A DNA stretch of 64,000 bases from Diplonema papillatum. Its lineage: Eukaryota > Euglenozoa > Diplonemea > Diplonemida > Diplonemidae. Under the pieces are notes generated by a model that saw only the letters and a program-made list of their open reading frames with translations, ran no database searches and was not told the origin of the DNA. A program made the position numbers and the translations under genes. Of the stretch, positions 1,349 to 51,300 are shown piece by piece. The stretch spans positions 434,001 to 498,000 of the forward strand of contig JAPJBO010000021.1 of the NCBI GenBank assembly GCA_030068145.1. The letters are read 5' to 3'. Numbering within the stretch: position 1 is the stretch's first letter; each line of letters begins with the position of its first letter.

Positions 1349-1350
1349 AA

Positions 1351-1780: not shown

Positions 1781-1960
1781 TCTTGTCTGAGTTTCTTGGG
1801 CCCGCACAAGCTCGAACAGGCAGTCCGTGCGCGGAAAAAATAAAGTCGAAAGACACCAATCTGTACCCCCATTCGGGATCGTCGGAAACATAAAAACACG
1901 TGTACCGCCCCACCCGCTTCGATTTCAACCACACTAGTCTTTCCAAAGGGAAAATCGACT

Positions 1961-3700: not shown

Positions 3701-3743
3701 CCGTTATTTGCGTTATTTTTTCCGTTATTTTGCGTTTTCGACC

Positions 3744-3819
3744 GTTATATAACGTTATATAACGTTATATAACGTTATCACCGTTATAACGTTATATAAC
3801 GTTATATAACGTTATCAAC
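3744..3819. repeat. ACGTTATATA terminal array, right copy
   Basis: About seven copies of the same 10-bp palindromic unit as at 1351-1432, interrupted by one variant (ATCACCGTT). Confidence 0.9.
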
Positions 3820-4770
3820 CGGCCATCTATGTTCCAAGTTCCGCAAATCGACTTGAAGAAAAGCTTGTGTGCAGCTTCGGGGTACAAGAGTGTGAACCTG
3901 AGAGACTCCAGGGGATATTAGTTGTCGGCTTTGATGCTGCTAGCCACTCTCTCTGTGTTTTCACCAGCCACAGCGAAGAATGGAGACGGCTGCAATGGCT
4001 GTCCGGCAGTTTGGTGCGGATCGCCGTCAAAGGTAATGTTCAGTAGTCGCCACGTACCCAGCTGCATCGGCGTACTTCTTGCACGAGCGTTCCCATGTAC
4101 TCCAGTCTGTGGGCAACCGTTTCTTGAGTCTTTGGTGTGTCCTTCAAAAGTACCGAGTGTCTGCAAGCTTTTTCAATAACAAGTCCACCGTCAAACAACG
4201 CAAGAGGACGACTCGATTTGGTCGCTCACACAGCATACGATGAGTATGCGCTTTTGAGCAACACTGGGCATTTATCTTTGTCAAAGCATCAGTCAACATG
4301 CAACGACAGAAAACGTAGTCGAGCTCGCCACAGCCACACGTGGCCTCTATCGCGCGTTCCTTTGCGTTCTAAGCGCATCAGAATAGTAGGTTAGTAGCAG
4401 GCTGTTTGATCAAGGCGCGGTTCGAGCATGTGGCGAGCTTGACAACAGAAAAACGAGGGGTCAACACTTCTTTTTTTGTCCGATATCTTCCGCTCGTCGT
4501 CACGAATGCCTATTCATCTCTGTGCTCTTCCAGCAGTGCGGCCCTCTGCCCCTAGACTGTTCATCGTCGCTACTTTCGCTGTAACAACGAATGCTTGTTA
4601 TAATCAAGAAGTGACCGTCGAGGACGTACTGTGTGAGTGTTCATTCATCCGTAGCCTTGATTCCACAGGTGCACGCGGGCATTCCGTTCAATGGTACGCA
4701 GTGTCCGATTTCGCCCACTAATAAGACAGCCGATTGAACGTGCACTAATACCACGGACCAGCCTTCGGCT

Positions 4771-12879: not shown

Positions 12880-13072
12880 AATATTTATCGGAAACTGTTT
12901 CCGATAAATATTTTTTTTTGTTTCCGATAAATATTTTTTTTTGTTTCCGATAAATATTTTTTTGTTTCCGATAAATATTTTTTTGTTTCCGATAAATATT
13001 TTTTTGTTTCCGATAAATATTTTTTGTTTCCGATAAATATTTTTTTGTTTCCGATACATATTCTTGGTTTCC
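12880..13072. repeat. Left terminal array of the MULE
   Basis: About nine head-to-tail copies of a 20-22 bp unit built on TTTCCGATAAAT plus a T-run of varying length. The array is the inverted counterpart of 18527-18830. Confidence 0.92.
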
Positions 13073-17900: not shown

Positions 17901-18461
17901 TTGTGCTGCTTGCACCTGCCCAACCGCTCCTTCTGCTCGTGGTGGGTTCCTTTGCCGTTGTACCTGCCGGGTTGCGGGTGCTCTTTGTGCTGGTCTTTGT
18001 TGTGCTGCTCGCACGTGCCCGGAGGCTGCGCCTTCTCGCGGTGCGTCAGGACGAGGGTTAGAAGGTGCGCCCGGATAGGCACCCGGATTGTAGTAGGACA
18101 CCGGGTTGTAGTAAGCCGGATAAACCGCGGGGTAGGAGTACGGGTTGTGCTGGTAGTGCTGCTGAGCATGCTGCGGAAGTTGCTGCTGGGGCGGGTGATA
18201 CTGTTGCTGATGCTGACTCTGAAACGGCTGCGGGTGCTGAAGATACTGCTGCGGGTGGTGCTGAAGATACTGCTGCGGGTGGTGCTGAAGATACTGCTGG
18301 TTTGGCTGGTGCTGAAGATACTGCTGCGGGTGGTGCTGAAGATACTGCTGGTTTGGCTGGTGCTGAAGATACTGCTGGTGTGGGTAATACTGTTGCTGGT
18401 GCGGAAGTTGCTGCTGGTGCTGAAACTGCTGCGGGTTCGGGTCGTCCTGTTGCCTGTCCAT
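14979..18461 (-). CDS. MULE transposase with AK-rich histone-H1-like tail
   Basis: A 1160-residue transposase read from the ATG at 18461; the frame is open further upstream, but only through terminal repeat sequence. The order is: a Gln/His-rich N-terminal region of short tandem repeats (residues about 5-110), an Ala/Pro-rich linker, a zinc-ribbon-like DNA-binding region around 'CRDKECGW' (about residues 290-330), the MULE DDE core with an FLDGTA aspartate near residue 451 and an MTDRSKGL aspartate near residue 513, and a SWIM zinc finger (CTC...CKHVC, about 718-740) followed by a CxxC-x3-GH knuckle. The last 260 or so residues are repeats of Lys/Ala/Pro-rich blocks alternating with Ser-rich blocks. 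The enzyme would cut and paste the element ends. No frameshift is seen. The third catalytic acid was not assigned. Confidence 0.85.
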   Translation of the reverse strand: MDRQQDDPNPQQFQHQQQLPHQQQYYPHQQYLQHQPNQQYLQHHPQQYLQHQPNQQYLQHHPQQYLQHHPQQYLQHPQPFQSQHQQQYHPPQQQLPQHAQQHYQHNPYSYPAVYPAYYNPVSYYNPGAYPGAPSNPRPDAPREGAASGHVRAAQQRPAQRAPATRQVQRQRNPPRAEGAVGQVQAAQQQDAPRAEGAAGQVQTIHQNAPRAEDAAAGHMHADVPQAEGGAPPAAGQQVAAAEPDDVTMGGVKAEECFRNWEDCREALLSHASRTGRFFKKAFSNGTRGHWKVTCRDKECGWAVVAKKDSDTNQVKVVSVGSHTCLSEEKRLTRGVTGVVWKQHPSLLQTSPGVASARKTLQTDHETTLSYSAVQRLKLKAQRVEMGDFARDYGLVRSFLRAIEDANPHTVWNVTPGPPDNDSEPVHFKCAFLALASSKRALAGALPQIFLDGTAMHGGFGGVALVACCKDANRNIVPLCVAVVGSENSASWKYFLTMIKASYGDLSTWTFMTDRSKGLTENLVEQVFEDAAPRFVKCLRHLTKNILESMAGSKEIISDILFRLAGARTDAQYKEVREDVRKEYGKEFVKKVVKKCEGLTWADRQLVSPRLGEYTTNAVESLNGKLLEARELGICCFFREWRRISAEWWTRRAQELRGAEGSFVTSVTNAIMRSIKAGGTLQTIPGRVDEELVCAEVSSGIKADDVVHIATINLTTKTMTCTCRKPLLDLLPCKHVCAAVSLTANIAVKDLVPNVMAWETLREMYRVGPQPEMVPVIRDLPEEALLPPLCDTRPVGRPKKEDKKRKKGADEGTQQCLRCGRWGHRAFFKGKRLCKHPILHGFHPRTKAEQRSGTIDADNDRGSDFSSEDHSDSAHDSETQQTAENSETQQTAETASLPASSTSSKSSSSAIQKQAKPAAKKAMAKPAAKKAKAKPAAKAARQQSSQSASLSASSTSSKSRSSAIQKQAKPAAQRAMAKPAAKAARKRSRQTASLSASSTSSKSSSSAIPKKVTPAAQKAMAKPAAKKSTAKPAAKAARKRSRHTASLSASSTSSKSSSSAIQKKVKPAAQKAMAKPAAKKSTAKPAAKAARKRPRHTASLSASSTSSKSSSSAIPKKAKPAAQKAVAKPAAKKTMAKPAAKAARKRSRQTASLSASSTSSK
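14985..15775. repeat. Tandem repeats of about 171 bp inside the transposase gene
   Basis: Four to five diverged copies of a coding repeat (57 codons, some shortened) encode alternating SASSTSSKS and KPAAKKAMAKPAAK-type blocks at the transposase C-terminus. Confidence 0.85.
18215..18420. repeat. 24-33 bp tandem repeats coding a Gln/His-rich segment
   Basis: Repeats of CTGAAGATACTGCTG followed by GGTTTGGCTGGTG or CGGGTGGTG encode a QYLQH-type repeat near the transposase N-terminus on the minus strand. Confidence 0.85.
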
Positions 18462-18526
18462 AGTTCGGAATTTCCTTCTTGTTCTTCGTCCTGTTGGTAT
18501 CGGAACCAAATCATATCTCGAAATTA

Positions 18527-18830
18527 TCGGAAACAAAAAAATATTTATCGGAAACAAAAAAATATTTATCGGAAACAAAAAATATTTATCGGAAACAAAA
18601 AAATATTTATCGGAAACAAAAAAATATTTATCGGAAACAAAAAAATATTTATCGGAAACAAAAAAATATTTATCGGAAACAAAAAAATATTTATCGGAAA
18701 CAAAAAAATATTTATCGGAAACAAAAAATATTTATCGGAAACAAAAAAAATATTTATCGGAAACAAAAAAAATTATTTATCGGAAACAAAAAATATTTAT
18801 CGGAAACAAAAAAATATTTATCGGAAACGT
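18527..18830. repeat. Right terminal array of the MULE
   Basis: About fourteen head-to-tail copies of a 20-22 bp unit, CGGAAACAAAAAAATATTTAT, differing mostly in A-run length. It is longer than its left counterpart and lies just upstream of the transposase start, so it probably also holds the promoter. Confidence 0.92.
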
Positions 18831-30386: not shown

Positions 30387-33300
30387 ATGTTCTGGAGTAG
30401 GACACTGTGCTTTGTTATTATCGAGGTAACGTTGACGGCGTGCGCTCAGTGCACTACACATGGAACCGTCACCAAATGCAATGACGACTCAGCACACTGT
30501 GAGTGGGACTGCGTGAACGAGGTCTGCCACTCAATTTGCCGGACAGCAAACTACACCGGCTGCACTGCCAGCCCCGCGTGTCGGTGGGACATGATCACAG
30601 GGATGTGTCATAGGGCCAGGTGTCAATACACACACGAAGCGCCTTGCATGGCGAGTGGCGTGTGCGAGTGGATCAGTGAATCATTGACGTGCACCGAGCA
30701 TGCTTGCTACGGCATCGGGAACCAATGGCAGTGCGAGGTGTCCGGTGTTTGCGAATGGGACACGTCGTGTGGGTTTTGTAACAACGGGGAGTGCACGGAT
30801 TTGTATGCAACGGCGCAAACATGCACAGCAGACGCGGCAGCATTAGGTTGTCAATGGAGTGCTTCCAGTTGTGGACGGGCAACGTGTGATGACTACAACG
30901 GCTTTCCTGATATGGAGTGCCGTTGCAAGTTGAACGCAAATTGCTACCTGAACAAGGCCTCGACAACGGCTAAGTGCGTCGACAAAAGGTACTCGTCATG
31001 CGGCGATTTCGACATTGCGATCGCGGTGGATTCATCTTGCAAAATGTCAGAAGCAACGCCTCCGCAGCCCGTCATGTACGATGCCATCCTCGATACAATC
31101 CGCGACATGTTGCGGGCTACACCTTTGTCCGGCGATCCCGCCGGAAGTCTGTCCGTCGGTGGCGGTGGCTCTTTCCGGTTTGCTTTCAGCAGTTTCGCCG
31201 ACAGCGCTGCCGTCGGCGTGTGCACCGAGTGCAGCTGCGACTCGCGTCAGTGGGCGATCAATGACAAGTCGACCGCCTGCGGCAAATTAAGCGGTTCCCG
31301 GAGTCAGCTCGAGGCGGACTTGGCGGATCTGCACGCGCAGGGCCCGCAGGCGGAGGACTGCGGGAACGTGTCGTTGACGCACGAAGTCCTGTGGGCCGAG
31401 CAGGTATTCCGCGACTCGCCCCCGGCGCGAAAAAGGCTGCTGATCCTGTTCATCGCGTCTCCCGTCGATGACGTTGCGGACGAGCGGCAAAAAGCGGTCC
31501 GCGACAACCTCCTCGCGTCCGGCGTCGAGCTGTTCGTATTCTACCTCACAAAGCACAAGGACGCCACCGCCGGCGAACTCAGCGTTGCGGCTTCCCTCTC
31601 AGGCATCCCAAGCAAGGGTGGCACGCCTTTTGTCACTGTAGACGGAGTCCGCACTTACCTCGGCTCCTTCTGCGACGAGGAGAGCTACTTCGGGCAGTAC
31701 GAACGCATCTTCAGGAAATGCGAAGATGCCGGTACCGACGCGGCTCTGTGTCTTTTGCAGACCACTTGCACGTGGAGATCAACTAGTGGTACGTGTTCTG
31801 AGCACGCGTGCTTGCTCAACTGTGCCGAGCAGCCTTGCACAGCTTCCGCTTCAGGCTGTGTCTGGAAGTCTGCAACTAAAACGTGCGAGAAGCTTTCATG
31901 CGCGAGTCACTCGACTGAACTGCTTTGCGACCAAAACCCGTTTTGCGCCTACGATCCTTCGAAGATCCCGTCATGCTTCAATGACCCGTGCCCTGGTGTC
32001 TCGCTGGACGATTGCAACGCCTACGAACACTGCATTTGGGTTGGCAGTACCTGCGTCATCAACGAATGCGACTTCCCCAACCAAGTCACGTGCGAAGCGC
32101 ACTCCGCGTGCGAGTGGGACTCGTGTGCTGCCGGGTCTACCTGCCGCACGGTTCCTTGCTCGGGAGCTGTGCACAGAACACTGGAAGGCTGCAAAAAAGA
32201 CAGCAAGTGCGAATGGTCGTCGGCAAGCACGTGCGAGCCCCTCATCTGCGTTCACCACGCACTAAAGCAGTGCTGCGCTGACGACGTCAAGTGCGAGTGG
32301 GATGATGCGAATTCGGAATGCAAAATAGATCACTGCGCCGGGAATTATCAAACACCTGGGCACCGTATGGCATGCGATGATGATGTGAAGTGCATGTTCG
32401 ATGTCTCAAAGCAGCTATGCGTTGTGAAGAGCTGCCATAGCATGGAGAAGTGCCAGTGCAAGGCGGAACCTGACTGTTTCTGGCACGACAAAGGTATAGA
32501 GTCGTCGTGCAAGGACGCCGCCTTCGCACGGTGTCCTACCATGGATTTGATGATCTTAGTCGACGGGGCAAATCGGATGGGATTGAGTGCCGGCCCCACA
32601 GTTCCTGTTACGTGGGACTACATGTGGGACATCGTTAAGGGATGGATCAAGCGGATTCCGCTCAGCGGTGAACGGGCAGACAGTGACGAAGGTGCATCCG
32701 TCGGCGGCATGCGCCTCGCCTTCATACAGTTCTCTGGATCCAGCGAATATTGGAGCGGACCGGCTTTGACTTATCACTGTAATTCCACGGACTGTGCGAA
32801 CAATCGGTTCTCTGGTGATCAGGACGAGCTGCTTGCAGAAGCGGACTGGCACTTGAAGCACCTTGCGAATAGAGGCACGCGCATTGAACGCGCGTTGAAA
32901 ATCTTCCCCGAGTGGTACGACAAAAGGGCGAATGACAGAAGGAAGGTGGTTTTGATCCTGACAGACGGGAAGCTATACGATGAGCAAAGCGTTTGGGAAC
33001 TTGCTTTCAAGAACGCACGAGCAGAGGCTGAGATCATGGTCGTGACTCTACGGCGGGCGGGGAAAGGCGATTGGACAGACAGATACGCCGATCAGTACCT
33101 GAAGCCGCAAGTGACGGATCCCAGCAGGAATTACTATGAAAGCGCGCCGATCTGGCGAACGTGGGAGTTCTTCCAGGGCTTCTGCGACCCTTCAGAACTG
33201 TGGGGACAAGCGATCGTCAACGGTTCAGCTGACGAGCCGTGCCGGGAGATTATGGACTCTATCGAATGCGCTGCCGACCCTCGGTGCGTAGCAGACACGA

Positions 33301-36300
33301 CCACTCAAATGTGCGTTCCGTCGATGTGCTTGAACCAGTGTACGAAAGACGAGTGCGCCGCGCTTCTGTCTGGCATGTGCTTCTGGGACAATGTCAAGGA
33401 TGGCTGCTTGAAGCGAGCCGAGTGCGCGCATACGCAGGAGCAAACCTGCGTATCCGACACAAGGGGTTGCGCCTGGGATGCTGCAAACGGCTTGTGCGGC
33501 TTGCGGCCTTGCAACTACGATCATGTGTCAGAATGCTCCCAAATGGAGGGATGCCAGTGGATGATACGGAACGAGAGTTACATTTGCGAACAAGACAAGT
33601 GCCATGGCGTTATTCGCGCGTTCGATTGCGAGCACATACAGGGGTGCGAGTGGACGACTGCTTGCTCGTTGTCGGCTGATGAGACGTGGGATCAGACAGA
33701 GCAGGAAAAAATGTGCCTGCCGCGGTTGTGCACGCACTCGGACTACAAGTCGTGCGTCCTGGATCAAGACAACTACTGCGAGTGGGCAGTCGAAACCTCG
33801 ACTTGTCAGTTGTCACACTGCTCGCATCAGAGGAGCGAGCTCTGCTGCATGCAACGTGATGAGTGCGTATGGTCAACCGTACGCGCGCCGACGTCTTGCG
33901 TACCGAAGGCGTGCACTTATTTCAAGACAGGAGACACGTGCAACAGCGCGCAAGGTTGCATGTGGCGGGCAAACTCGACCGGCGTCGAAAAGTGCTTTCC
34001 CCTGGAGTGCCACTTGTTAACCGACCGCTGTGGTTGCGACACGCACCCGAGGTGCTACTGGAAATACTCCGGCAGCTCCAGTTTCTGCACGTCAGCTGAA
34101 TTCGGGCTCTGCCCGGACGCGGATATCTACGTAGTTCTTGACGGCAGCAAGAACTTTCACCGTTGGTACGACGGTTTCAACCCTGCATACGTGAACATTA
34201 TGAGCATCCTGCACGAATGGGTGACAGCGATCCCGCTCAACGGTGATGACATCGGCGTCCAGAAAAATACATCCGCCGGCGGGCTGCGTGCGACGTTTTT
34301 GCAGTCGTCTGGCGAAAGCACAAACAAAGGCGCCACGTCGATGGAGGTAGGAAGCACCCAAGGACTCTTCTCTGGCACCCTTTCTCAGCTACAGGCTGAC
34401 ATACAATGGCACACAGTCGTAAACTACAAGTTGTTGGGCCGGGTGACCGCTGGGCTGCTGCATGCGAGGAAAACCTTTGACGCGTGCACTCCTCCAGACC
34501 GGAAGAAGATCGTGTTGTTGGTGTACGGAGATGAGATGGTCGACGCGGCTGCTGATTCGCCGGATTTCTACACGCATTTGTCCGATGTAAAGGCCGTCGG
34601 CGCTGAGATTTTCGCGCTTGGTCTCATGCGTTATCCCTGGAGCTGGCAGGCACCAGACACCAAGCTGCAAAATAGCTTCAAAAAGATCACGACTGACGAT
34701 CATATCGTGATGGGGGGCTTCGACGACATTACCGAGGCGCTGTTCTCCATGTGCGACGCGGACGGCACATTCGGGCGGTTTATTGCCGTAAAGCCGACGA
34801 GTGGGCAGCATCATCCCTGCCCTAGTTACCGTGCCAAAGCAGACTGCAACGCGGACAAAGGATGCGTGTGGTCTGAGGCTGGCACCAGCTGCGTGAATAC
34901 ACCTTGTCTGGTACACTGTACCCCTGACAGCTGCTCCGCCGCCAATTCGCACGCTTGTCAGTGGGACCTGCTGGAGCAAGAGTGCTTCAAAGTGCCGCCT
35001 CCTCCTGTCTGCGCGTGCGACTACGACAGAAAAGCGTTGTGCCTTGCAAACACAACACACTGCGCATGGAACGAACAGTCAGGCAGTTGTTTGTTTGATG
35101 AGTGCAATATTTGGGGACCCTTCTGCGAGGCCGCCGCTCAAACGTGCACGGACCCCGACACCAGCCCGTGCTCGTCTGGCGACTGGCAGTGCAGCTGCAA
35201 TCCACCGGCACTGTCTGTAGGCAATGTGTGCGTACTCGACGAGTGCAACGTCACTGGTTGCGCGACATGTGCAAACTCCACCTGTGACGCCTTTGGGCAG
35301 GTGTGTACGGACCCTGACACCGGCGGGCTCAGTTTGCGCGATTGGACGTGCAACTGTCGTCCCCCTATTACAGGGTCTTCCATCATCCAACCGGCTACTT
35401 GCCATCTCGACGAATGCGGTACGGCTGTCTGTGCCACTTGTGCGGGGACAACGTGCTCAGATGCGAACCAGACCTGTATCGACATGAATCAAGAAGCACA
35501 CCAAACCAATGATTGGGTGTGCGCGTGTCCGCCTCCTTCACTGAACGTCGGGAATCAACAGCCAGCCACGTCGTGCGCGTTCGACGAATGTGACACGCAC
35601 AGTGCCGTGTGTACCAATTCGAACCAAACATGCACGGATACCGAACAACTGATTCTACACACCTGGATGTGCATCTGTTTGCCGCCTGAGATTGGAAACG
35701 CATCGTTGGCGAAAGCCATCTGTTTAATCGATGAGTGTGCTGCGCTTTGCACGACGTGCGCCAACGACACTTGCGGTCAAGCTAATCAGACTTGCTATGA
35801 TCCAGACATTTCTGGCGCCTCGAGATGGGACTGGATGTGCCTGTGCCCGGCCCCGTCTACAGACAACGCAACCAGTAGTGTGGCTACGTGTACTTACGAT
35901 GAGTGCTCTCCGGAAAGCAATTGTTCAGACTGTCCTTTCGACGTGTGCAAGGATGACAATCAGACTTGCTACGATGCCAACCGTTCGTTGGCAGACCTGC
36001 AGGACTGGGTTTGTGTCTGCCCGCCGCCTGTGGCAAAGACGCAGTTGCTCGGTGCTGCCGACTGCTCTTTCGACGAGTGCGAACACCACGGCGGCACGTG
36101 TACAGCCGTGAAACAAACCTGCGATGATCCGAACTACCTCATTCAGGGTGACTGGACATGCACTTGTGTAACTCCGGAACAGGGCTCCGCAACTGCGCGT
36201 GCTGCATTATGTGAATTCGATGAATGCGAGAATGTCTGTCGTACGTGCTCAAACGCAACGTGCACCGACGCTGGTCAAATATGTACTGACGTCTTGAATG

Positions 36301-39300
36301 CGACCGACTCTCAAAATGACTGGGTATGCTCATGCATCGGCATTTCCACAGGATCGGCGGTGGCGAATGCCGCCACTTGCTACCTCAATGAGTGCGACGT
36401 TAACTGCTCCACGTGCGCCGATACGACATGCTCCGTGGGCGGACAAACCTGCTACGACCCATCCCCACTTGAGGCTAGCCGATCGGATTGGATCTGCGTT
36501 TGCCCAGCACCAGCATCTGACACGGCATTACTGTCCCTCGCTGCTTGTGCAGTAAACGAGTGCGGCACACACGGATCGACTTGCACGGAGGTCCAGCAGC
36601 TCTGCGAAGACCCCGATGAGTACTCAGCAAGTGACTGGGTCTGCGTGTGTCGCTCTCCCGCGAGCGGGTCAGCGCAAGGAACGGCCGCGGTGTGCATTCT
36701 AGACGAATGCAAGGTGGCTGGCTGCTACACGTGCGCCAATGAAACGTGCTCCGATGTAAACCAAACCTGTATTGATCTCAGCACAGCGGAACAATCTACA
36801 AATGATTGGCAGTGTTTGTGCCGAGTCCCCTTCACCGGCTCAGCACAAGCGAATGCCGCCACATGTGCGTTGGACGAGTGCATGGCGAACTGCACGACCT
36901 GCGCGAATGGTACGTGCGATGACGTGGGGCAAGTATGTTTGGATACTAATCAGCTTGTTTTCAGCGATTGGACGTGTTTTTGCCCGCCACCGGCGTCCGA
37001 TTCTCGGCAGCTTGGCCCCGCTGACTGTCACTTCGACGAGTGCAGCGTGCACAGCGGAACGTGCGCCAGTAGCGATCAACTGTGCGACGATCCCGACCGA
37101 TACACGCAAGGGGATTGGATGTGCAGCTGCGCCATACCCTACAAAGGTAGCCAAGCCGCAGCTCCTGCTGCGTGCATGCTGGACGAATGTGAAGTCGTCG
37201 GCTGTCGTACTTGCGCTAATCAGACGTGTATCGACGCGGGGCAAACGTGCGTTGACTCCAACATGTCAGCTGCATCCTTGAATGATTGGGTGTGTGCATG
37301 CCCAGATCCGTCCAATGGCTCGGCAATTGCCAACAGAGCAGTCTGCAGCCTCAACGAGTGCTTCGTCAACTGCAGCGGATGCGCAGGGACGGTGTGCAGC
37401 GACGCAAACCAGGCGTGTTACGACCCCCAACCGTACTGGTTGTCCAAAGAGGACTGGATCTGCATCTGCCCGTCGCCGTCCAATGTAACGAAGCAAGCAG
37501 CCGTTGCTGACTGCGGGATTGACGAGTGCGACGGTAATTTGGAGTGCGCCAATGGTGGGCAGAATTGCACTGACCCAGACTATTACTGTCAAGATGACTG
37601 GCGGTGCGTGTGCGTGTCCCCTTTATCGGGTTGGGCCGTTGCTCAAATGGCGGAGTGCCACCAAGACGAATGCAATGCGACCTGCGCAACTTGCGAGAAT
37701 TCTATTTGTGCAAAAGCCGCCCAACTGTGCAATGATCCAAACACGGCCTTCAACTCAACGAGCGACTGGACGTGCACCTGTGTCTTTCCAGAGAATGGAA
37801 CGGCAACTGCAAACAGCGCGCGTTGCGTACTTGACGAGTGCATCGTCAGGGGCTGCCCTACTTGCGCAGATGACACGTGTTCGCTACAGAAACAGACCTG
37901 CTATGACAATGATGTATTGGAAAAGAGCAACTGGGAGTGCGTATGCGCACCGCCTGCATCCGCATCAAAGTCACTGGCGGCCGCTGACTGTGCTTTTGAC
38001 GAGTGCTCTATCCATGTTGCAGTGTGCCAGGCTGTAGACCAGGTGTGTGCGGATGCAGATTTGTACACCCAGGGCTCGTGGTACTGCAAATGCGTAGCGC
38101 CAGCAAACGGGACTGCCCACGCGGGAAGCGCTCTTTGCTTTCTTGATGAGTGTGCTCCTCATGCGAATTGCATGACGTGTGCAAACGAGACTTGCTCTCG
38201 CGCCGGGCAGTATTGCACTGACAACAACCTGTTGGCCGACACAACTAACGATTGGATGTGTATATGCGGGGCACCAGCCAATGGATCAGCTGTAGCAAGT
38301 GCAGCTGTCTGTAAACTCGACGAATGCTCAGTCGTGTGCGCCAGTTGTGCAAACGGGACATGTGCTGCGGCAGACCAGACGTGTTACGATCCGTTCCCCG
38401 TCGAGACGTCGCTGAGCGATTGGACGTGCACATGCCCTTCGCCGTCAACGAGCTATCAGGCAGCAGGAGTGGCTGACTGCGTGTACGATGAGTGTTACGA
38501 ACACAATTCGGCATGCCGCAATGTGAGAGATAGGATGGGAGATCAGTTTTGTGTTGACGAAGACACCCGAAGCTTTCGCACATGGAAATGCGTGTGCGTT
38601 GACCCTACTAGCGGAAGTGTTGCCCTCGGCCCTGCGCAGTGCATTCTGGATGAATGTCTTGCGACTTGCGGAACATGTGCAGGAAATACGTGTGTGGATG
38701 CTAACCAGACTTGCCACGACCCGAATACCAATGTGTCGACGACTGGTGATTGGACGTGCAGCTGTGAACATCCAAGAACAGGCTTCGCTGTCGCAAACGC
38801 TGCTACGTGCAAGTTACACGAATGCAACGTCACCTGTTCAACATGTGCAAATTCCACGTGTACTTCGTCGGGGCAGTCGTGTCTTGATCTAGACACCACA
38901 GACGCCTCTCGAGGCGACTGGCAGTGCATATGCCCTCCTCCCTCACACGCCATGCAAATAGCCGGCGCTGCTGACTGTGTGTTCGACGAGTGTTCTGTAC
39001 ACGGAAAGACCTGCGAGGGAGTTAATCAGACATGTGCAGACATGGACCTGTACACACAGAACACATGGCAGTGCCTGTGCGTAGCACCGACTTCTGGAAG
39101 TGGAATGACGGAGGTGGCTGTCTGCCGGCTTGATGAATGTTCAAGCCTTTGCCCGGCTTGTCCAAATGCAACATGTGCTGCCAAGGGCCAGACCTGCATT
39201 GACGACAACACGCTCGCTAACAGCGCTGGTGACTGGAGGTGCCTCTGTGAGCCACCTGCGTCAGGAAGCGCCGTAGCCAACACTGCTATCTGCCATTTGG

Positions 39301-42300
39301 ACGAGTGTCGGGTTCAAGGGTGTAGCTCTTGCGCCAACGACACGTGCAGCGCCGGTGGACAAGCATGCCAGGACCTCCTCCCAGACGTGGAAAACAAAGG
39401 TGATTGGTCGTGCGTGTGTCCGCCACCTGCCAAATCATTGCAAGTCGGAGCTCTAGCGGACTGCGCTTTTGACGAGTGCGTATTGCGCCGAACCGTGTGC
39501 ACACGCAACGGGCAGGCGTGCACAGATACGGACCTGTATCACGAAGGGACGTGGAGGTGCGATTGTGTCCCCCCGGCAGTTGGATCCGCGAATGCAGGGG
39601 GGGCCTCCTGTGTGCTGGACGAGTGTTCTGCGATTTGCCCGAGTTGTCAAAACTCTGTTTGTGACAACGCGGGCCAGGCATGCACGGATCTCAACACTTC
39701 TTCAGCTTCCATACATGATTGGACGTGTTCATGTACCGGCTTTGCAACCGGAACAGCAACGACGAATGCAGCAGCGTGCTTCCTCAACGAGTGCAAGGTC
39801 GCAGGGTGCTCATCGTGCGCGGGTACGACCTGCACTGTCGCAAACCAGACGTGTTTTGACCCGAACCCGTTGGAAGAGAGTCTGAACGACTGGGTCTGTG
39901 CATGCAAAGCACCTGCAACCGCAACAGCACCTCAGGCACCCGCTGACTGCGAGTTTGATGAATGTGTCCTCCACAGCGGAACCTGCTCAGCAGCGGATCA
40001 AGAGTGCATCGACCTCGACAGTTTTGGAATCGACACGTGGGGGTGTCGGTGTGCATCGCCAGCGCAAGGAAATGCATCTGAAGCTGTGGCGCGGTGTGTG
40101 CTCGACGAATGCGTGGAGTTGTGCAGCTCGTGCGCGGGAACCACCTGCTCCGTTGCAGGCCAGTACTGTACCGATCCGGACACCTCGTTTGATTCAACAG
40201 GCGATTGGGTTTGTGCCTGTACCCCCCCCTCCTCAGGCTTTGCAACGGCCAACACGGCTCAGTGCTTTCTAGATGAGTGTGTCACCCGAGGGTGCTCGAC
40301 TTGCGCAAATGGCACGTGCGACGCGGTAGGCCAGGATTGTTATGATCCTGAGCCATATGCACGGAAGCTCACTGATTGGCAGTGTGCTTGTCCGCCTCCA
40401 ACCAACACGACAAGTATCTATGGTGCTGCACATTGTGCCTACGACGAATGCCCTGTTCGCGGTAGTGTCTGTTTGAACGTTGATCAGACGTGCAATGACA
40501 CTGACTTATACACCCTCGGCTCGTGGCAGTGTATTTGTAAAACCCCGCTATCTGGCTATGGCGCAGCTGGTATTGCTTCGTGCGTAATTGATGAGTGCAA
40601 CCGGACATGCGCGACTTGTTCCAACGGCACTTGCGCCTCTGCCGATCAAGTGTGCACGGATCCCAACCCCTCATCTGATTCGACAGGAGACTGGTATTGC
40701 GCATGCCGTGGGCCTTCAGTTGGACAAGCAACTGCAAATGCTGCTACCTGCCTGCTCGATCAGTGCAAAGCGACTTGTCCCTTGTGTGCTGGCACAACCT
40801 GCACAGCTGGAGGTCAGATGTGTTTCGACCCTTCCCACATTGTGAGCAGTGTTTACGACTGGGTATGCGTGTGTGGAGCACCTGCGAATGCTACACAAGG
40901 GTTAGGCCTGGCGGACTGCTCCGTCGACGAGTGTGCTTACCATGCAGCTACGTGTACGAACATGAACCAGACGTGCAGCGATCCTGACGAGCTGGTCGAA
41001 GGTGACTGGATGTGCCAATGTCCATATCCCGAGTCTGGTGTTACTGTCGCTGCCCCTGCCACTTGTACCCTTGACGAGTGCACAGCCAACTGCACCAAGT
41101 GTGCTAACACCGTGTGCGGTGTTTCGGGTCAGGGCTGCAGTGACTTGAACATTCTCGCAGACTCCAGAAACGACTGGATGTGCGTGTGCCGAACGCCGTT
41201 CAGTGGTATTGCTATCGGCACTGCCGCGACGTGCACCATCGACGAGTGCGACAGTACGTGTCCGACGTGTGCGGGGACGACGTGTTCCGTTGGCGACCAG
41301 AAGTGTTCCGACCCAAATACTGCAGCTGGGAGCTTAAACGACTGGATTTGTTCCTGCAAGCCACCCGCTTATGACTTCAGGGTCGCCGGCGCGGCGAGTT
41401 GTGTTTTTGATGAATGCCATGACAACGAACACATCTGCCTCGCGGAAGGACAGGTCTGCAACGACGTGAACACCTCAGCGTCCAGCTTTGAAGATTGGGA
41501 ATGTGTTTGCATGGCGCCTGCCGTCTCGCCGTTTAGCAGGACGCAAGCAGCACCATCTCATTGCACGTACAAAGGCGAATGCGAACTCAGCAACGGGGCC
41601 TTTGCAAAAATCTGCGCAGCCGCCGGACAAGTGTGCAATGATCGTGATACAGCAGTTAATGGAGACTGGGAGTGTGAATGCCTTCCGCCCGCCGTTGGAT
41701 CGTCGCAGGCTACAGCCGCTGCAAATTGCGTCCTCGACGAATGCACCAGCAGTTGCTCCACCTGCGCTGACACGGGCAGTGGCAACGTGTGCGATAGCGA
41801 AGGGCAAGCCTGCGTGGATCCTAAGCGAGATCCGTTGAATCTGAACGATTGGTACTGTCAGTGTATTTCCCCCCGGACGCAAACGGGCAATCTTTCCGTA
41901 TCCATCGGAACGGCCGCCCAGTGCGAGCTTGATGAGTGCAACGCAGCTTGTGCGACTTGCGCTGGCGCGACGTGTTCATCTGCAGGGCAGAATTGCGATG
42001 ATCCAAATACGGATCCAGCATCAACAAGTGACTGGACGTGCACGTGCCCGATTGGCATCGGAAAAGCTACTGCACGGCCCGCGCAGTGCGGCTGCAATGA
42101 GTGCGCTGAAAACAATGGCACATGCATTTCTGCCAATCAGACGTGTTACGATGCTAATGCTTCATGCCCGCCTGCCAACGACTGGATCTGCCAGTGCCGT
42201 GCACCCTCCGTCGCGTCCGCTGTCACTTCTGCGGCTGTATGCGAATACGACGAGTGTATTGCTTTCGCAGGAACCTGCACATCGAATGGGCAGTTGTGTA

Positions 42301-45300
42301 TAGACACAGACTCGACGAAGCTGGATACGTGGTATTGTGTTTGTCCAATTCCTTCGGAAGGAAGCGCTTTAATGTCTGGTGTCGAGTGCATACTGGACGA
42401 ATGCTTGCAAAAGACCTGCGGTGCAGGCCAAGTGTGCAACGACCCAGATCAAAGGAGTAAAAGTCTCGGCGACTGGACATGCACGTGTGATCCCCCTGGC
42501 GTGGGCACATCGACGCAGGGGCGAACGCAGTGCGTTTGCAACGAGTGCATTGACAATGATACCTGCGCCGATGTCGGCCAATTGTGCTACGACCCCGACA
42601 CGTCGTGTCCGGCTGCGGGAGACTGGATTTGTGTTTGCCCATCCCCGTCTTCTAATACAGCGATGGCAGCCCCAGCATTTTGCGGCTACGACGAGTGCGA
42701 AGAGCAAGGCTCAGCGTGCACAGCCGTGGGGCAGCTTTGCGAAGATCCCGCTGAGCAGTCCTTCAACGACTGGCGGTGCCATTGCAAGTCACCCGCAACG
42801 GGGACGGCGATTGCCGTGGCTGCTGTTTGCGTGCTGGATGAGTGCGACGACGCTCCTTGCGGCATGCAGCTGTGCATGGATCGAAACGTCAGCGCGTTTT
42901 CCAAATCAGACTGGACTTGCTCTTGCGTGTTCCCCCAGGTAGGTGAGGCAACAGCGAAACCTGCTGTCTGTGTCTGCAACGAGTGTGTCCAACATAATGA
43001 TACATGCACGAGAGCGAACCAGATATGCTACGACCCGACGCCGGAATGCTTGGCTTCAAATACCAATGACTGGCTCTGCATTTGCCGGCCGCCATCTTCA
43101 AGAACAAATGTATCCGGAGCTGTGACTGCATGCATGTTCGATGAGTGCGCTGACCGTGCAGGCATCTGTCACGCTGCCAACCAGACCTGCCGTGATCCAC
43201 AGCACGATGTCATCGGTGACTGGACCTGCATTTGTCCGAACCCGAGTACCGGGCATGCCGAAGCGAAGGTTGCTGACTGTACGCTAGATGAATGCAGGGT
43301 TCACTGTCCCAGTTGCGCAAACGGAATGTGTGCAGGTGCCGGTCAAACGTGTGCGGATCCAAACGCAAATGCCCAGTCAACCTACGACTGGACTTGCAAC
43401 TGCGAGCTTCCTTCCACCGGAATGGCGACAGGCAAAGTAGCTGATTGTACATGCGATGAGTGCTTGACAGCACTTTGTATTGTTGATGACCAAACTTGTT
43501 ACGACGCAGTTAGAACGTGCCCTGGTGGAAATGACTGGCTTTGCGCGTGTAAGCTGCCATCGAGGACGACTGCTGTTGGAATGAACGTTGCCATCTGTGA
43601 GTATGACGAATGTGCATCGGTAGGCTCAGCTTGCTGTTCTGCTTCAGGGCAAGACTGTGCGGACCTTGATCATAGCGTCGAAGATGACTGGAAGTGTTTG
43701 TGCGTAGCCCCAAAGATTGGCAACATGACCACAGGTGTTGCTGAATGCACACTCGACGAGTGCTCGGAGAGATGTTCAACTTGTGCCAACAACACGTGCC
43801 TTGCAGCTGGTCAGGACTGTTTTGATGTGAACACTACGGCGGCGTCCGCCTCCGACTGGACCTGCTTGTGTAAGTTTCCAAAACACGGCGCTGCCACGGG
43901 AAAAGCAGTCGGCTGCTTGTGCAATGAGTGTCTGCAACACAGCGGAACATGCGCAACCGCCAACCAGACGTGCTTCGACCCGACGCATGAATGCTCAGCG
44001 AGCGCGGACTGGCTCTGTCAGTGTCCCCCACCGTCTACAACAACGAGCGCTGTTTCGGTGGCGGCTGTTTGTGAGTTCGACGAGTGTCTGGACGAAGCAT
44101 CTGTATGCATCGCACAGGGGCAATTGTGCGTTGATGGCGCGCCCGCCCAATACGGCAATTGGAACTGCACCTGCCAATCACCGTCCGTCGGCACCGCCAT
44201 GAACGCTCCCGCAGTCTGTGTCTTAGACGAATGCTCCGGCATTTGCTATTCGTGTGCCAACGACACGTGCAATGCCGCCGGCCAGCTGTGCGACGATCCG
44301 AATGAGTCTGCTCTGTCTCTTAACGATTGGATGTGTGTCTGTCAAGTAGGCTTTGGCAATGCAACACAGAAGGTGGCCACCTGTGTATGCGATGAATGCG
44401 ACGAGCACTCTCATGAATGCGCTGCGCTGAATCAGTCATGCTACGACCCTGACCATAGGTGCGCCATGGTAGACGATTGGGAATGCGAATGCAGCCCCCC
44501 ATCAACGGACAGAAATATTGGAGGCCCCGCTGTGCAGTGCACGTATAACGAGTGCTTTGAAAAAGCCAATGTTTGCGAGGCGGCAAAGCAAGCTTGCACA
44601 GATACCGACTTGTTGTCACTCAACACATGGACCTGCAGCTGCCCGCCGCCAACATCAGGAAGCGGTTCACTCACCGGCATAGCCGATTGCAGACTAAATG
44701 AGTGCGACGTTCCGTGCGACACATGCGCAAACAGCACCTGCGCAGACGCGCAACAGTCTTGCAGTGACCCTGATACTCATTCTTTGGCGAGACAAGACTG
44801 GATTTGCACGTGTTCGGCAAACGGGGAAGGCTCCGCCACAGGTCAAGCAGCGTCGTGCGTATGTAATGAATGCATTCAGTTCAGTAGCACGTGCACGGCT
44901 TCTAATCAGACATGCTTCGACCGCAACAAGAGTTGTGATGCGTCGTATGACTGGGAATGTGTTTGTCCTTCTCCTTCTTGGAGCACGGCTGTCGGCGGCG
45001 TGGTACCCATTTGTGAGTACGATGAATGCGCCGAATTCGCGTCGACGTGCACGGGAAATGGGCAGATGTGTCAAGACCTAAACACGGGCACCTTTGGCGA
45101 TTGGAAGTGCATCTGCATCCCTCCAGCGTCAGGCGAGGGCATCGCCGTAGCCGCCGTGTGCGTGCTGGATGAGTGTATGGCCGAATGCGATTTGTGTGCG
45201 AAGAGCATATGCACATCGGCTTCGCAAACTTGCGTCGACCCCGACGTGAGAGTAACATCAACCAGAGACTGGCTGTGCGTGTGTACGGAAGGCGTGGGTC

Positions 45301-48300
45301 AAGCGACGGGCAGAGCATCGACTTGCAGCTGTGATGAGTGTGTTCACCACAGCTCAACTTGCGCAGCGCAAAACCAAAGCTGCTACGACCCGCGACGTGG
45401 GTGCGAACAGAAAGACGATTGGACGTGTGTCTGCGCTCCGCCATCAACTGCCACGCAAGTAGGAGGCACTGTTCAGTACTGCTTATACGACGAGTGTAAA
45501 CAGCATGCGTCGGTGTGTGCGTCGGAGGGGCAAGAGTGCACGGACCACAATCCACATAGCTTTGACGACTGGTCATGTCGGTGCCCCTTCCCAAGCGAAG
45601 GGAACGCAACGATGTCGGCCGCTCGATGTGTGCTAAATGAATGCGCCGTCCCTTGTATATCTTGTGCAAACGACACGTGCCATTCCGCTTCGCAAAATTG
45701 CATCGACCCCAACATGGATGGGACTTCTACGTTTGATTGGATGTGTACCTGTACCGATGGCGCCGGAGAGGCTACGGCGAAACCAGCGACATGCAGCTGC
45801 AACGAGTGCGCAGGCAACACGGTGTGTATCTCGGCGAACCAGACATGTTATGACGGCACGTTTGATTGCTCATCGAAAGGGGACTGGGTCTGTCAGTGCG
45901 CACCGCCCTCTCATCGCGCTAATGTAGCCAACGCTGTGACAAGCTGCGAGTTTGACGAGTGCATAGACAACGCAGCGACCTGTTCTGGCAAAGACCAGAC
46001 GTGTGAAGATCCAGACACCAGTACAATCAACGACTGGATCTGTAGCTGTCCCGCTCCCTCGACCGGATATGCCACAACCGGTACAGCTGACTGCTACCTG
46101 GATGAATGCCTACCTGCGTGTGCTACGTGTCCATACTCGATTTGCGCCGAACATGGCCAAGGCTGCGAAGACCACGACAGGAGGTTGACTTCATTGAATG
46201 ATTGGCTGTGTGTCTGCAATGCTCCGGGCATCGGAAGTGCCACTGCGAAGCCAGCACTGTGCTCATGTGACGAATGTGCAATGCAGAATGGCACCAACAA
46301 CGCGATGTGCACTACTGGTGGACAGTCTTGTTTTGACGTTCACCCAGCCTGCGACTCACGCGACGACTGGTTTTGCCAATGTGCACCACCGTCGTCGGCC
46401 ACGCGACAAGGCGGCGTTGTTGAGGTGTGCTCCTTCAATGAATGCCAAGACTCCGCTGCTGTCTGCAGTTCAGCTGGACAGGTCTGTGATGATGTCAATC
46501 AAACCAAGATCGGCACCTGGACCTGCAACTGTACGGGTTATTCGAGTGGGAGTGCCATCGGTGGGCCTGCCTCGTGTCAGCTTGACGAATGCTTGGTCAT
46601 CGGATGCCCAACATGCGCAAACTCAACGTGTCTTGATGCGGGTCAATTGTGTGTAGATCCGAACAACAGCACCGCTGCAAAGTCCGACTGGCAGTGCGTT
46701 TGTCGTGACCTCGGCATTGGCAAAGCAACAGCAAAGCCCGCTGATTGCATGTGCCCAGAGTGCAAAATCGACGACGGCCGGAACAGTGCAGAGTGCTCCT
46801 CGATGAACCAGACGTGTTACGACCCCAATCACTCGTGCGAGACTCGCGACGATTGGATCTGCTCGTGCTTGCCGCCATACATTGGTACTGGGGACCGTGC
46901 TCCTGCTATTTGTTCTCTGGATGAATGCAGGGACTACGAGAGTACATGCACGGCTGTGGGCCAATTATGCATTGATCCGAACATGACAGTAACCGACGAC
47001 TGGACGTGTGTCTGCGACGCACCAAGTGACGGAGTCGCTGTTGGAAAGCCGGCCGTGTGTGTTTTGGATGAGTGCCTAAGACGGTGCTCAACGTGTGCGA
47101 ATGACACGTGCGCCGCTGCTGGGCAAGATTGCGAGGACATCGACACTGACTCGACTGCGCTGAAGACGTGGATGTGTACCTGCACCGAGGGCGTCGGTCG
47201 GGCAATGTTCAAGCCAGCCGTCTGCGTTTGCGACGAATGCGCCAACATCACTGGCTGCCCTCAGGACCAGACCTGCCACGACCCCAGCACAGCTTGCGAC
47301 TCACCAAACAACTGGGTCTGCAGGTGCGCGGCGCCTGCAACAGGAACCGGCCGGCCACAAGGTCCAGCAGTCTGCGAGTTTGATGAGTGCGTCGACTACA
47401 GGTCAGTATGCGTGAACCAAAACCAGACGTGTGTTGACATCAATTTAGCAGCTCTCGGCGATTGGACGTGCGTGTGCAGAGAACCCGGACGCGGTACGGC
47501 AACAGCCAGCGTCGCCGCGTGTAAGGTGGATGAGTGTGAAGAAGACTGTCCGACGTGCGCGGGTACGACGTGCAGCGACGAGGATCAGATTTGCTACGAT
47601 GCCGACACATCAGCACGGTCCCTCAAGGACTGGACGTGTTCCTGCCGCGGCCCGAGCGAAGGCAAAGCGACGCTTACCCCCGCGCAATGCGTCACGGACG
47701 AGTGCAAAGGGAATGACGCGTGCACCAAGGATTGCACAACAATGGTGGGCTGCTCGCAGAGCTGCTTAGACATGAATAGAAGCCCTTCTTCCCTAAACGA
47801 TTGGCGCTGCGTCTGTGCCTCCCCACTGACCGGCTACGCAGTCGGGGCGGCAGCTGCCTGCAACGCAGGAATCTGCGCGCATGAGACAGAAGCGTCTTGC
47901 ATTATGGACGCCGACGGTTGCGTTTGGACCGATATCCCAGCGCCCCGATGCTCCGAAGCCCCTTGCGCACACGACACCGTGCAGACATGCGAGGCTGACA
48001 ATACATGCGAGTGGCGGACATTCGCCGGGACCCGCTCTGGTACCGGAGTCAAAACCAACTCTGTGAACGTGCGTGTGATGCCCTTCGCGTCCTTGTCCTG
48101 CTCTTCAAACACAACGTCGTGGACAGGCCCGTGCAGCTGCTCCACTGTACTTGGGACGGGGTCAAAGGTTGGGTCCAGTGTGCTAGTTAGCAGAAGCTAC
48201 GTGTCCGGCAAAGACTTCCTCCTTTGCACCCGCTGCAGTGGGAAGATCACGTCTCTGTGGGACCAGAGCATCGGTCGTTTGGGGTTGTACGGTCTGGCGA

Positions 48301-51300
48301 CAGTGGAGGAGTACATGGCTGTAATCGCCACCGTCGAGTTCGTGACTTTTTCGGTTGACTCGATCAGCAAAGACGTCTCTTGGAACCTCGGGCATGGGTT
48401 GTTTTCGGAGGATATCGGTCATTATTACTCTTACGTCAGCGTAATGCCTGACGCTCTCGAATGGGTTGAAGCGCAGCAGGCTTGTGAAGGGGATGGCAAC
48501 ATGATCTTGGGGCTGCGAGGGTACCTGGCGACTGTCACCAGTTCGTTGGAAAACAGCTTCGTCCGGCGGTACACCGCGGGCAATGCTTGGCTCGGCGCTA
48601 CCCGCGCTGGTTCTGGCGCGTGGCGGTGGGTCACCGGCCCCGAGGCCCTCGGTGCTGCAAATGCATGTCGCTTCGCTTCTGGATCGTCGATGTGCACCTT
48701 TGACGTTTCACTGGCTGCGGGTGGGTATTCGCTCACAGGGCTCGATGCGGGAGGCCAAGGGTTGCCGCTGACCTTCGCCAACTGGAAGGACGCTCCAGAT
48801 ACAAGCGTGCACGCAGATTTTACCGCGTTGGTCGCGGGCTTCGGCACTTGGTCAGCCAACAACCTATCGGCCAGCAACACGACAGTTCAGGGCTACGTGT
48901 GCGAGTGGGGAGGTGTTGGCGACTTCTGCATGACAGATCCAACAGAAGCCTGGGGAACCGTCTCGTTATTTGCAGGCGTGTGCAAAGAAAAGCGCTGCAC
49001 AGAGACCGGTCAAGCGGAGTGCTCGGCGGATCCTCTCTGCGAATGGGTAGGAGGAAGCGCTGAGCCGTGCGTACTGAAGGAGTGTGCAAGATATCCGAAC
49101 GAAAGGTCGTGCGTCGCCCAGAGGAAATGCACGTGGGACGTCTCGATTTCGACGGGAATGTGCTCTTTGAGGCCGTGTGCCAAGCACGCCTCGGTCGACT
49201 CCTGCGAAACAGACGGAGGCTGCGCGTGGGTTGGCGATTGCATTGAAAAGGAATGCCAGAACGTAGACTCCGCCTGCGACTGCAAGCAGGAGACCGCCTG
49301 CTTCTGGAACGACCGGAACCCCGTGACGACACTTCGCAGCTGCATAGAGGAAGCGTATGGGCAGTGTCCGATCCTCGACCTCGCTGTCCTTGTTCCGGGC
49401 ACGCAGAGCATGCAAGCGATCTTTAGCCGGCACCCAAACGGATATTTCGCACTGACGACGATGCTGAAGGATTGGGTCCGAACGCTGTGGCTCACGGAAG
49501 AAAGCCACACGGCGCTAACAGAATCGAAAGCTCCGAGCGGCGGAGTCAGGGTGGCATTGATCCAGTACGGCGGGACTCCAGGAGCCAGTGGGTTAGGCAT
49601 GCTTCAAAGCCCCGTGGGTACCGGCGAGAGCGGAAGACTTTCAGGTAGTCGTAATGAACTGCTGGACGGCTTGGCTTATCATGAAAACAATTGCCTGGCA
49701 GGCAAAAAGGCTTACATCTTGCCAGCAATGAAGGCAGCAATAAGCGTGATGTCGGCATCTCCACAGTCGCGCAAGCGTGTTCTGATTGTATTGGCCACCG
49801 ACGAGATCCTAGACATTTCCGCCATTGCTTCCGTGCGGAGCAAGCTCGCCGTGCAGAACGTCGAAATCTTTGGAGCTGTGCTTCGTCGCGTTGCCCTCGT
49901 TTCTCCAACGAACAAACGCGTAGAAAAGGACTTGCAACGCGTCGTGAGCACCCCGTCCCTCCAACACTTAGCCAACATCCGCATCGACGAAGTACCTGCT
50001 CAGCTGTCAGGCATTTGCAACCCGCAGACCGTATGGGGTGCCCTGCTTTCATCTGCGCCTGAAGTAGGCGTTCGCAAGCCGTGCACACAGTACAGCAGGC
50101 AGGCTGACTGTGCAGCTGACAAAGGTTGTGTTTACAACAGCGTCTTTCTCAAGTGCGAGGACTCGCCTTGCGTAAGGCACTGCCACGAATTCAATTGCAC
50201 GGCGGAGGCCACGAGTAAGTGCCTGTGGAACGGGACAGAAGGTACCTGCTGGAAAGCGGGGGCATGCCCATACTCTGCGAGCCTGACTTGCGACGCGGAC
50301 ACCGACTGCTTGTGGGACAACGGTGTATGCAGTGAGCGATTGTGCAACGCAAAGACCGAAGTCGAGTGTCAGGTCAAAGCAGAGTCTGTCTGTGAATGGA
50401 GCTCTTTCGTGCGGAGATGCGACGTAAAGCAGTGTCAACACGAAACGAAAACAGCCTGTCTGCAACATCCGTCCGAAGCCTGCTTCTGGGACACCTGCGC
50501 AGCTTCACTGCCGGGTTCTTATGCTTGCATGCACAATCCGTGCTCAGGCGGGTCCGAGGCAGCGTGCACTGGTGACTCACGCTGCGCTTGGGATGGATCT
50601 GCCTGTGACTTCAGTCGTTGTGGCTCGTTTGGCGATGAGCGTTGTTGCGGTATGGCGACAGATTGCGCGTGGGACGTTGTGTCGTCACCAGGAAGATGTG
50701 TGCAAGGGTACTGTTCGAAGCTGGACTCGGCGCTCTGCGAGTCGGACGCTGCTTGTAGCTACGACAACGGAACGCAGGCCTGCGTAGAGAAGACGTGCGC
50801 GCAATTGGACAGGTGCGCATGCAACGCAGACACCAGCTGTTTCTGGCGCGCGGAAAACAGCCCGGGATGCTTGGCAGTGGACTATGCAGCGTGCCCCGTT
50901 ATCGACATCGTCGTGCTCGTCTCGGGGTCCAAACAGATGGCCGCTTCATTTGGACGGCACCCCCACGGCTTTTATGGCCTCTTTGGGCTGCTCCGGTCGT
51001 GGGTCTCAATCTTACCACTATCAGGTGAACTCGCCGGAACCACGACGCCTGTTGGCAAGCAAGGCGGGGTCCGGTTGGCGATGATGCAGTTTGCGGGCGT
51101 GAACAAAGACTCTCTAAACAAGGGATCGGCTGCGGTGGTGCATACCACCGTCGTAGGCACCAAAGGCAGGTTGTCAGGCAGTGCGGCAGAGCTGCTTGAC
51201 GATGTCAGGTGGCACGAGTTGAACTACGCGAACACAGGAAACATGCTTGCCGCTGGTATGCAAAGGGCCGGTGCACTGTTAGCCGCATCACCGCAAGATG

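Follow-up and report, generated by a model that had tools for sequence, protein, structure and literature searches.

The number of repeats in proteins built of tandem modules can commonly vary freely. The question raised by a locus of Diplonema papillatum is what would hold two blocks of repeats within one polypeptide chain at matched numbers. The locus lies in a stretch of 64,000 nucleotides (the window), which corresponds to positions 434001-498000 of contig JAPJBO010000021.1 (C21) of assembly GCA_030068145.1. A single open reading frame (30387..53567, + strand) codes without interruption for a giant, apparently surface-located protein of 7,726 amino acids, which contains an array of 80 epidermal growth factor (EGF)-like modules. 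In this array, 13 triplets of one kind (ABC) are followed by 12 triplets of another kind (DEF), and the relation ABC = DEF + 1 recurs in 14 of the 15 intact complete arrays read in the same genome. That the counts of the two arms are truly coupled is regarded as very likely. A chain folding back on itself at a central hinge is given about even chances of being the reason.

The 80 modules result from splitting the array at the xEC boundary. Module 1 is the left cap (35103..35243). The left arm consists of the 13 ABC triplets (modules 2-40; 35244..41579), and its last module, J40 (41415..41579), is both the third module of the 13th triplet, ending in KGEC, and the first of three hinge modules. 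It is followed by J41 (41580..41741), the J40/J41 boundary being the midpoint of the array, and by J42 (41742..41936), which has eight Cys residues and a long C2-C3 stretch. The 12 DEF triplets of the right arm (modules 43-78; 41937..47534) and the right caps, modules 79 and 80 (47535..47861), complete the array, all on the + strand.

A period of three modules is certain in both blocks. In modules 2-40 the mean identity between modules of the same phase is 0.454, against 0.400 and 0.395 for the other phases; the corresponding values for modules 43-78 are 0.444 against 0.371 and 0.378. This contrast was matched by none of 10,000 permutations of module order in either block, and among periods 2 to 10 only 3, 6, and 9 stand out. 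Module lengths alone give a lag-3 autocorrelation of 0.88 and 0.62, equalled by 0 and 1 of 10,000 permutations, respectively. The best-scoring partner of a module is in the same phase for 32/39 modules of the first block and 30/36 of the second (62/75 overall). Neighbouring modules consequently do not group better than modules i and i+3, and the module number and the 13-fold and 12-fold cycles of the original prediction, made from the sequence of the window, are borne out. Its boundaries, 35238-47528, are a few bases off those of modules 2-78, which run from 35244 (first Cys) to 47534. The break was placed correctly at the irregular modules 41 and 42, but the odd modules are three, since module 40, while occupying a C slot, belongs to the hinge and has counterparts in the paralogues. 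Among the proposed class motifs, a D module ending in CxC and an E module with an extra Cys are found in 12/12 triplets of the window, but TQGDW is present in few C modules and NEC opens only some E modules. Two D modules (46 and 49) are short. The extra Cys residues of D and E co-occur in 72/72 DEF triplets of 14 genes. As a unit of several modules that is repeated in register, the triplet makes the array a superrepeat, in the window as well as across genes.

By eye, many D modules other than the first and several first or last B modules begin with CxHC instead of CxTC; such starts are seen in C366, C733, C1497, C146, and others, unlike the window gene. A CxHC start might be a metal site or a mark of position.

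Coupled triplet counts across the gene family

The genome searched is that of a eukaryote and comprises 271 Mb in 2,910 contigs, with all paralogue counts being lower bounds. It holds many giant paralogues in single frames, the longest open frames among those listed having 14,784, 14,039, 12,491, 11,503, 10,975, 10,910, 10,894, and 10,658 codons from stop to stop. Six class profiles built from the window were used to label the paralogous arrays. They revealed runs of ABC, a hinge, and runs of DEF, with single modules sometimes confused in class. The plan common to the intact complete arrays, with the exception of C633, is module 1, n ABC triplets of which the last ends in J40, then J41 and J42, n-1 DEF triplets, and the caps 79 and 80. 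The values of n that occur are 1, 4, 5, 6, 7, 8, and 13. The ABC/DEF counts are 13/12 in the window, 8/7 in C339, 7/6 in C366, 5/4 in C390, 4/3 in C1183, 1/0 in C62, and 6/5 in each of eight genes (C1497, C733, C623, C146, C240, C64, C4, and C319). Paralogues thus differ by whole triplets, which bears out the predicted expansion unit of three modules.

The number of modules on either side of the J40/J41 boundary is equal, 1+3n each (40+40 in the window), except for C62, which is one cap short. Over a 12-fold range of length, the residue lengths of the two arms of the 14 genes have a ratio of 1.014-1.039, that is, a difference of 1.4-3.9%, when modules 1 and 80 are excluded and module 79 is entered as a fixed 56 amino acids. 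Each gene has one hinge, and the Cys pattern of J40/J41/J42 is 6/6/8 in 14/14 genes. A counterpart of module 1 precedes the first triplet in 14/14 genes, 12 of them, including the window gene, having been read by script and C733 and C339 by eye. Both right caps are listed in 12/14 genes, again including the window gene; C339 has both, spanning a frame break that lies near module 79 and past the last triplet, and C62 has only one. The minimal array, that of C62, measures about 390 amino acids and consists of module 1, A, B, J40, J41, J42, and a cap; in a longer stretch, no further triplets follow these seven modules.

The final count draws on longer stretches for C62, C1183, and C339 and treats near-identical copies of the C1183 gene, and likewise those of the C339 gene, as one. 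The pattern for finding the hinge was loosened during the analysis, its earlier form having missed the hinge in C319 and C339. Arrays cut by contig ends or with unread ends were left out (C611, C1311, C265 twice, C1032 near 74 kb, C1710, C2191, and C1243). The rule of equality was noticed after the first dozen genes, whereupon three expectations were written down. One of these concerned the C1183 type, of which four ABC and two DEF triplets were visible; three DEF triplets were predicted before fetching, and the newly read stretch gave three. If every one of the seven values of n is represented by a single gene, only one of the 5,040 ways of matching the two counts at random satisfies the rule.

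Two side observations concern individual paralogues. In C432 (G000:C432:150200-170500; L065, L062, L059, L042, L018, L060, and L066), module spacing indicates a large insert in the B modules except that of the last ABC triplet, and two of these inserts, when scanned, proved to be beta-trefoil lectins of the ricin type (RicinB_lectin_2, with E 1.7e-18 and 3.2e-16). The gene with four ABC triplets, or pieces of it, is found in near-identical copies on seven contigs (C1183, C2097, C1606, C2426, C1535, C1816, and C1203), and identical matches lie in 1,951-codon frames of C1183 (twice), C1203, C1535, C1816, and C1831. These are either recent copies or assembly redundancy.

Descent of the two blocks

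The relatedness of the module classes was judged from profile scores over all 14 genes. The best match of D is A (112) and that of F is C (112), the latter pair being reciprocal; A is nearest to B (120) and then to D (114), and E is nearest to C (86), followed by A (82) and B (79). Profiles from the window alone give the best matches D-A, E-B, and F-C, with A level between B and D. The phase correspondence of the blocks rests on D and F, because E-B is seen only in the window and A is nearest to B overall. Two of the three slots thus seem to be in the same register in both blocks, which, from these profiles, most likely stem from one ancestral triplet. An independent origin of the two triplets is disfavoured by the pairings of D with A and of C with F. 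As the paralogues have the hinge and both blocks in common, the plan of two blocks is most likely older than the gene family.

The expansion is old, as identity falls only slightly with distance and fourfold-degenerate sites are saturated. Between lags 3 and 24, same-phase identity declines from 0.454 to 0.438 in the first block and from 0.448 to 0.406 in the second, while fourfold-degenerate sites agree between triplets at 0.27 and 0.28, against 0.25 expected. Nucleotide identity between triplets is 0.51, without a clear trend over lags 1-6, and Tandem Repeats Finder returned no row within 30387-53567. Recent duplication was rejected on the grounds of the saturated sites, the small drop of identity with lag, and the lack of such a row.

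A tree built from the hinge region requires six or more changes of n. Of its 11 inner branches one is starred, and the tree places C62 with the window gene, with a long-branch warning. The eight genes with six ABC and five DEF triplets are not independent of one another. The 12 regular ABC triplets of the window group in a single clade in an analysis of 57 triplets from 10 genes, with a support of 96 in the Shimodaira-Hasegawa-like approximate likelihood ratio test (SH-aLRT), in a quick tree with long rows that is less trustworthy and from which hinge triplets were left out. The triplet trees also left out C240, C319, and C623, which are close kin of genes kept. From this clade it would follow that the ABC arm of the window gene probably grew or was homogenised in its own lineage, and the DEF arm probably kept pace with that lineage-specific growth. 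The tree of DEF triplets needs three label changes, and a DEF clade of the window was not recovered clearly in it. A descent of triplets position by position across genes was considered and rejected, as inner triplets mostly fail to map; the hinge triplet maps cleanly and the first triplet less often, and C64 is partly in order with C1497 and C733.

The original prediction had further held that the array arose in two separate amplifications. This survives insofar as the ABC arm of the window probably expanded within its own lineage; an unrelated origin of the blocks is unsupported, given the D-A and F-C matches and the hinge and blocks shared by the paralogues. Separate, unlinked amplifications are disfavoured because of the relation ABC = DEF + 1 in 14 of 15 arrays.

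Explanations for the matched arms

Equality of the arms is probably under selection, because two steps are needed for each change of length and unequal intermediates are rare (1/15). Two steps are needed since an exchange that took in both arms at once would also duplicate the hinge or remove it, and 14/14 genes have exactly one hinge. Arms lying side by side would be the simplest physical reason for equality, and a fold-back at the hinge, judged from the sequences to have roughly even chances, would bring this about within one chain. The 13 ABC triplets would run outward, the three-module hinge J40-J42 would turn the chain, and the 12 DEF triplets with the caps would run back, so that the DEF arm would lie antiparallel along the ABC arm as a hairpin. 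Module i would face module 81-i, giving the pairs A-D, C-E, and B-F, with J42 opposite B13 and module 79 opposite A1. Both ends of the array would come to lie at one level amid the vWA and lectin regions, with the hinge forming the tip of a stalk. The extra Cys residues of D and E, because of their co-occurrence in every DEF triplet counted, would presumably form a D-E disulfide in each triplet, which would stiffen the returning arm. Triplets would be gained or lost in both arms in step, as a change in one arm only would put the modules out of register or make one arm overhang. The stronger proposition, that the array is an obligate intramolecular hairpin, zipped triplet by triplet and changing in length by paired ABC-DEF rungs, is advanced tentatively, at slightly less than even chances.

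A number of observations weigh against the coupling rule or the hairpin. C633, which lies in the open frame of 11,503 codons, has five ABC and five DEF triplets and a degenerate hinge, as read by eye; its total of 34 modules is even, but a division into 17 and 17 would be post hoc. The equality of C62 (1/0), another of the three expectations, was not blind, its seven modules with their lengths and class letters having been known beforehand, and, lacking the last cap, this array has four modules against three. The remaining expectation concerned C432, in which at least 14 ABC and 11 DEF triplets are visible; the left arm is broken by a non-coding stretch and a change of frame and the right arm is lost inside E11, and the broken gene speaks neither for nor against the expected DEF + 1. 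An AlphaFold model of two ABC triplets (12 rows from the window) is poor, with a mean predicted local distance difference test (pLDDT) score of 48.8, and a fold search with the array model gave nothing at E<=0.001, the best match being uromodulin (E 0.29). Of 200 random pairings within genes, 1, 2, and 0 reached the mutual information between the arms in antiparallel arrangement for A-D, C-E, and B-F, respectively, but a parallel arrangement, reached by 7, 14, and 0 of 200, is nearly as good. Among ten fixed pairings the register of the hairpin ranks fifth for A-D, second for C-E, and first for B-F. Inter-arm covariation is evidence neither way.

Fold-back is favoured over a pairing between molecules, in which the ABC arm of one molecule would lie along the DEF arm of another in an antiparallel dimer or fibre, with no fold-back at all. 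Such pairing, which is possible though rather unlikely, would account for equal arm counts and a fixed register just as well, and the hinge could be a straight joint instead of a turn. It is compatible with a constant special hinge at the midpoint of 14/14 genes but leaves it unexplained, and if proteins of different n (1 to 13) shared one coat, each would need to find a partner of its own kind.

That each arm was tuned independently to a fixed-length partner of its own, such as a glycan layer, a fibre, or a membrane spacing, in the manner of titin or nebulin, is considered improbable. A precedent is given by the super-repeats of nebulin, which match the lattice of their partner (PMC7109182). 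One outside ruler cannot set a 12-fold range of arm length (n = 1 to 13) in one genome, and yet in every one of the 14 genes the two arms agree in length.

Still less credit is given to equality as a mutational by-product, by which recombination would add a triplet to both arms together without selection for equal length. Tandem repeats do expand by unequal exchange, as is generally known, but exchange or duplication over both arms would double or delete the hinge, which is single in 14/14 genes, and the arms retain distinct classes and so seem not to swap triplets. Finally, two separate amplifications of different triplets that reached 13 and 12 by chance are highly improbable, for while the module classes of the two blocks are indeed distinct, their counts are locked in 14/15 genes, chance matching would succeed in one of 5,040 ways when each observed n is represented by a single gene, and the profiles match D to A and F to C.

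The coupling of copy numbers matters more than the period itself, as two repeat blocks in one chain have remained matched in count while their length changed at least six times. Matched counts are a sign of higher-order folding, read from sequence only, in a protein whose size and scarcity of relatives put it beyond the structure prediction available. If the matching of arms matters, a one-sided deletion of a triplet would be harmful and a two-sided one harmless. If the fold-back is true, the array would amount to a protein zipper of two coevolving strands, lengthening or shortening stepwise in evolution.

The giant protein, its surroundings, and known systems

An EGF-like domain has six Cys residues in the order C1-C2-C3-C4-x-C5-C6 and a two-stranded hairpin between C3 and C4. 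This order of Cys residues is invariant in the 22 C/F modules and retained in the A/B and D/E rows, and in a low-confidence AlphaFold model strands end at C3 and at C4-C5. By this Cys order, the modules belong to the EGF-like superfamily as judged from sequence. No Pfam family matched the array at 35238-47528 (modules 2-78) at E<=1. When single C/F modules were scanned, Pfam EGF matched in 8/22 (best E 0.002), with one score of 16.2 bits against a cut-off of 21.5, and the curated EGF cut-off was not reached by array modules. The consensus of EGF_CA is D-x-D/N-E/Q-C1 ... C3-x-D/N-x4-Y/F-x-C4. The array modules keep E-C1, C3-x-D, and aromatic-x-C4, without the Asp at position -4, and their C3-C4 stretch mostly has 12-14 residues; as EGF_CA matched in 3/22 C/F modules with a best E of 0.048, they are not assigned to this family. 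Profiles A1 and A4 gave no match among solved structures, and one query against viral contigs found no relatives of the array.

The frame, which stays open across 23 kb, looks like that of a giant type I membrane protein at the surface of a protist. From the N-terminus, a signal peptide (read by eye) is followed by Cys-rich modules with three von Willebrand factor type A (vWA)-like domains, the EGF-like array, a C-type lectin domain, Cys modules with two further vWA-like domains, EGF-like modules, a likely transmembrane stretch, and a tail, with all features on the + strand. The vWA-like domains 1 (approximately 31011..31740), 3 (approximately 34110..34850), and 4 (approximately 49365..50100) were delimited by motif position and alignment, domain 1 having no Pfam match at E<=1. 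Domains 2 (approximately 32532..33280; E 0.001, 19.7 bits) and 5 (approximately 50892..51640; E 0.00058, 20.6 bits) matched Pfam VWA below the cut-off of 23.8 bits. In an AlphaFold model of domain 2, built with five vWA rows (mean pLDDT 56.6), strands and helices alternate. The motif of the metal ion-dependent adhesion site (MIDAS) of vWA domains, DxSxS, is absent from all five copies as read by eye. The C-type lectin domain (48417..48914) matches Pfam Lectin_C (E 3.8e-05) above the curated cut-off (24.8 against 22.6 bits) over profile positions 3-61 of 107. Membrane-proximal EGF-like domains (52422..52640) match Pfam EGF_2 (E 0.00013), again above the cut-off (22.7 against 22.1 bits). A likely transmembrane helix, read from the sequence by eye, lies at 53181..53246 and is likely followed by a cytoplasmic tail of about 106 amino acids.

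Under one pattern, the flanks 30387-35100 and 47860-52700 have 17 C-C-CxW modules each; this equality may be due to chance, and the vWA counts are asymmetric (3 against 2). NxS/T sites number 88 in the array (4,253 amino acids) against 8 and 11 in the flanks (about 1,600 amino acids each). The modules of the array (35103-47861) are acidic, with class means of net charge from -5.4 to -6.4 over 14 genes. The array is perhaps a heavily glycosylated, cation-binding rod, to judge from its composition.

Upstream of the giant gene, an open frame at 9362-10405 contains a protein kinase domain (Pkinase, E 3e-52). A Mutator-like element (MULE) transposase (Pfam E 1.6e-08) lies between arrays of 21-bp repeats in opposite orientation (12896-13083, 14979-18731, and 18524-18828), and this element seems to have terminal inverted repeats made of tandem 21-mers. 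At 1345-3821, two repeat clusters of similar unit but opposite orientation (ATATAACGTT and CGTTATATAA) flank about 2 kb, and a unit of the TTGGCCATTTT type, 29-57 bp in length, is also present; this looks like another element with inverted ends built of repeats. The published D. papillatum assembly has 280 Mb, an N50 of 190,080 bp, and MULE elements (PMC10161547). One family search of the genome found no light-harvesting family, and the organism is therefore probably non-photosynthetic.

With these genes, a family of single-frame surface giants is described whose frames, among those listed, extend up to 14,784 codons. The main text of the D. papillatum genome paper makes no mention of EGF, von Willebrand, or adhesion (PMC10161547). 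In the open-access literature, no paper was found on such a protein or on a rule of matched arms. Adhesins of the apicomplexan TRAP/MIC type are likewise type I surface proteins that combine vWA with small Cys-rich modules. They are much smaller, their vWA domains carry a MIDAS, which is missing as DxSxS from the vWA-like domains of the window, and they are not known to contain an 80-module array. Fibrillin, Notch, and other tandem EGF proteins string together many EGF-like modules of six Cys residues that show xEC1, C3-x-D, and aromatic-x-C4, and the array resembles them in its long module rows and in these signatures. It differs in its longer C3-C4 stretch, the extra Cys residues in A, B, D, and E, the strict cycle of three modules, and the lack of a Pfam match.

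The giant cadherins Fat and Dachsous reportedly bend on themselves, according to the title of a study by Tsukasaki in 2014, and would thus be comparable giant extracellular rods, albeit made of animal cadherin repeats; we know of no matched-arm rule of copy number for them, and no search was made. Nebulin has super-repeats of seven modules that measure 38.5 nm (PMC7109182). Like the present protein, nebulin and titin are giant modular proteins in which modules cycle in higher units of fixed order. They are intracellular, with actin-binding or Ig/Fn3 modules on the muscle filament, contain one kind of block, and have their order set by an outside lattice, whereas the array of D. papillatum is EGF-like and presumably extracellular and consists of two classes of block with matched counts about a hinge, for n from 1 to 13.

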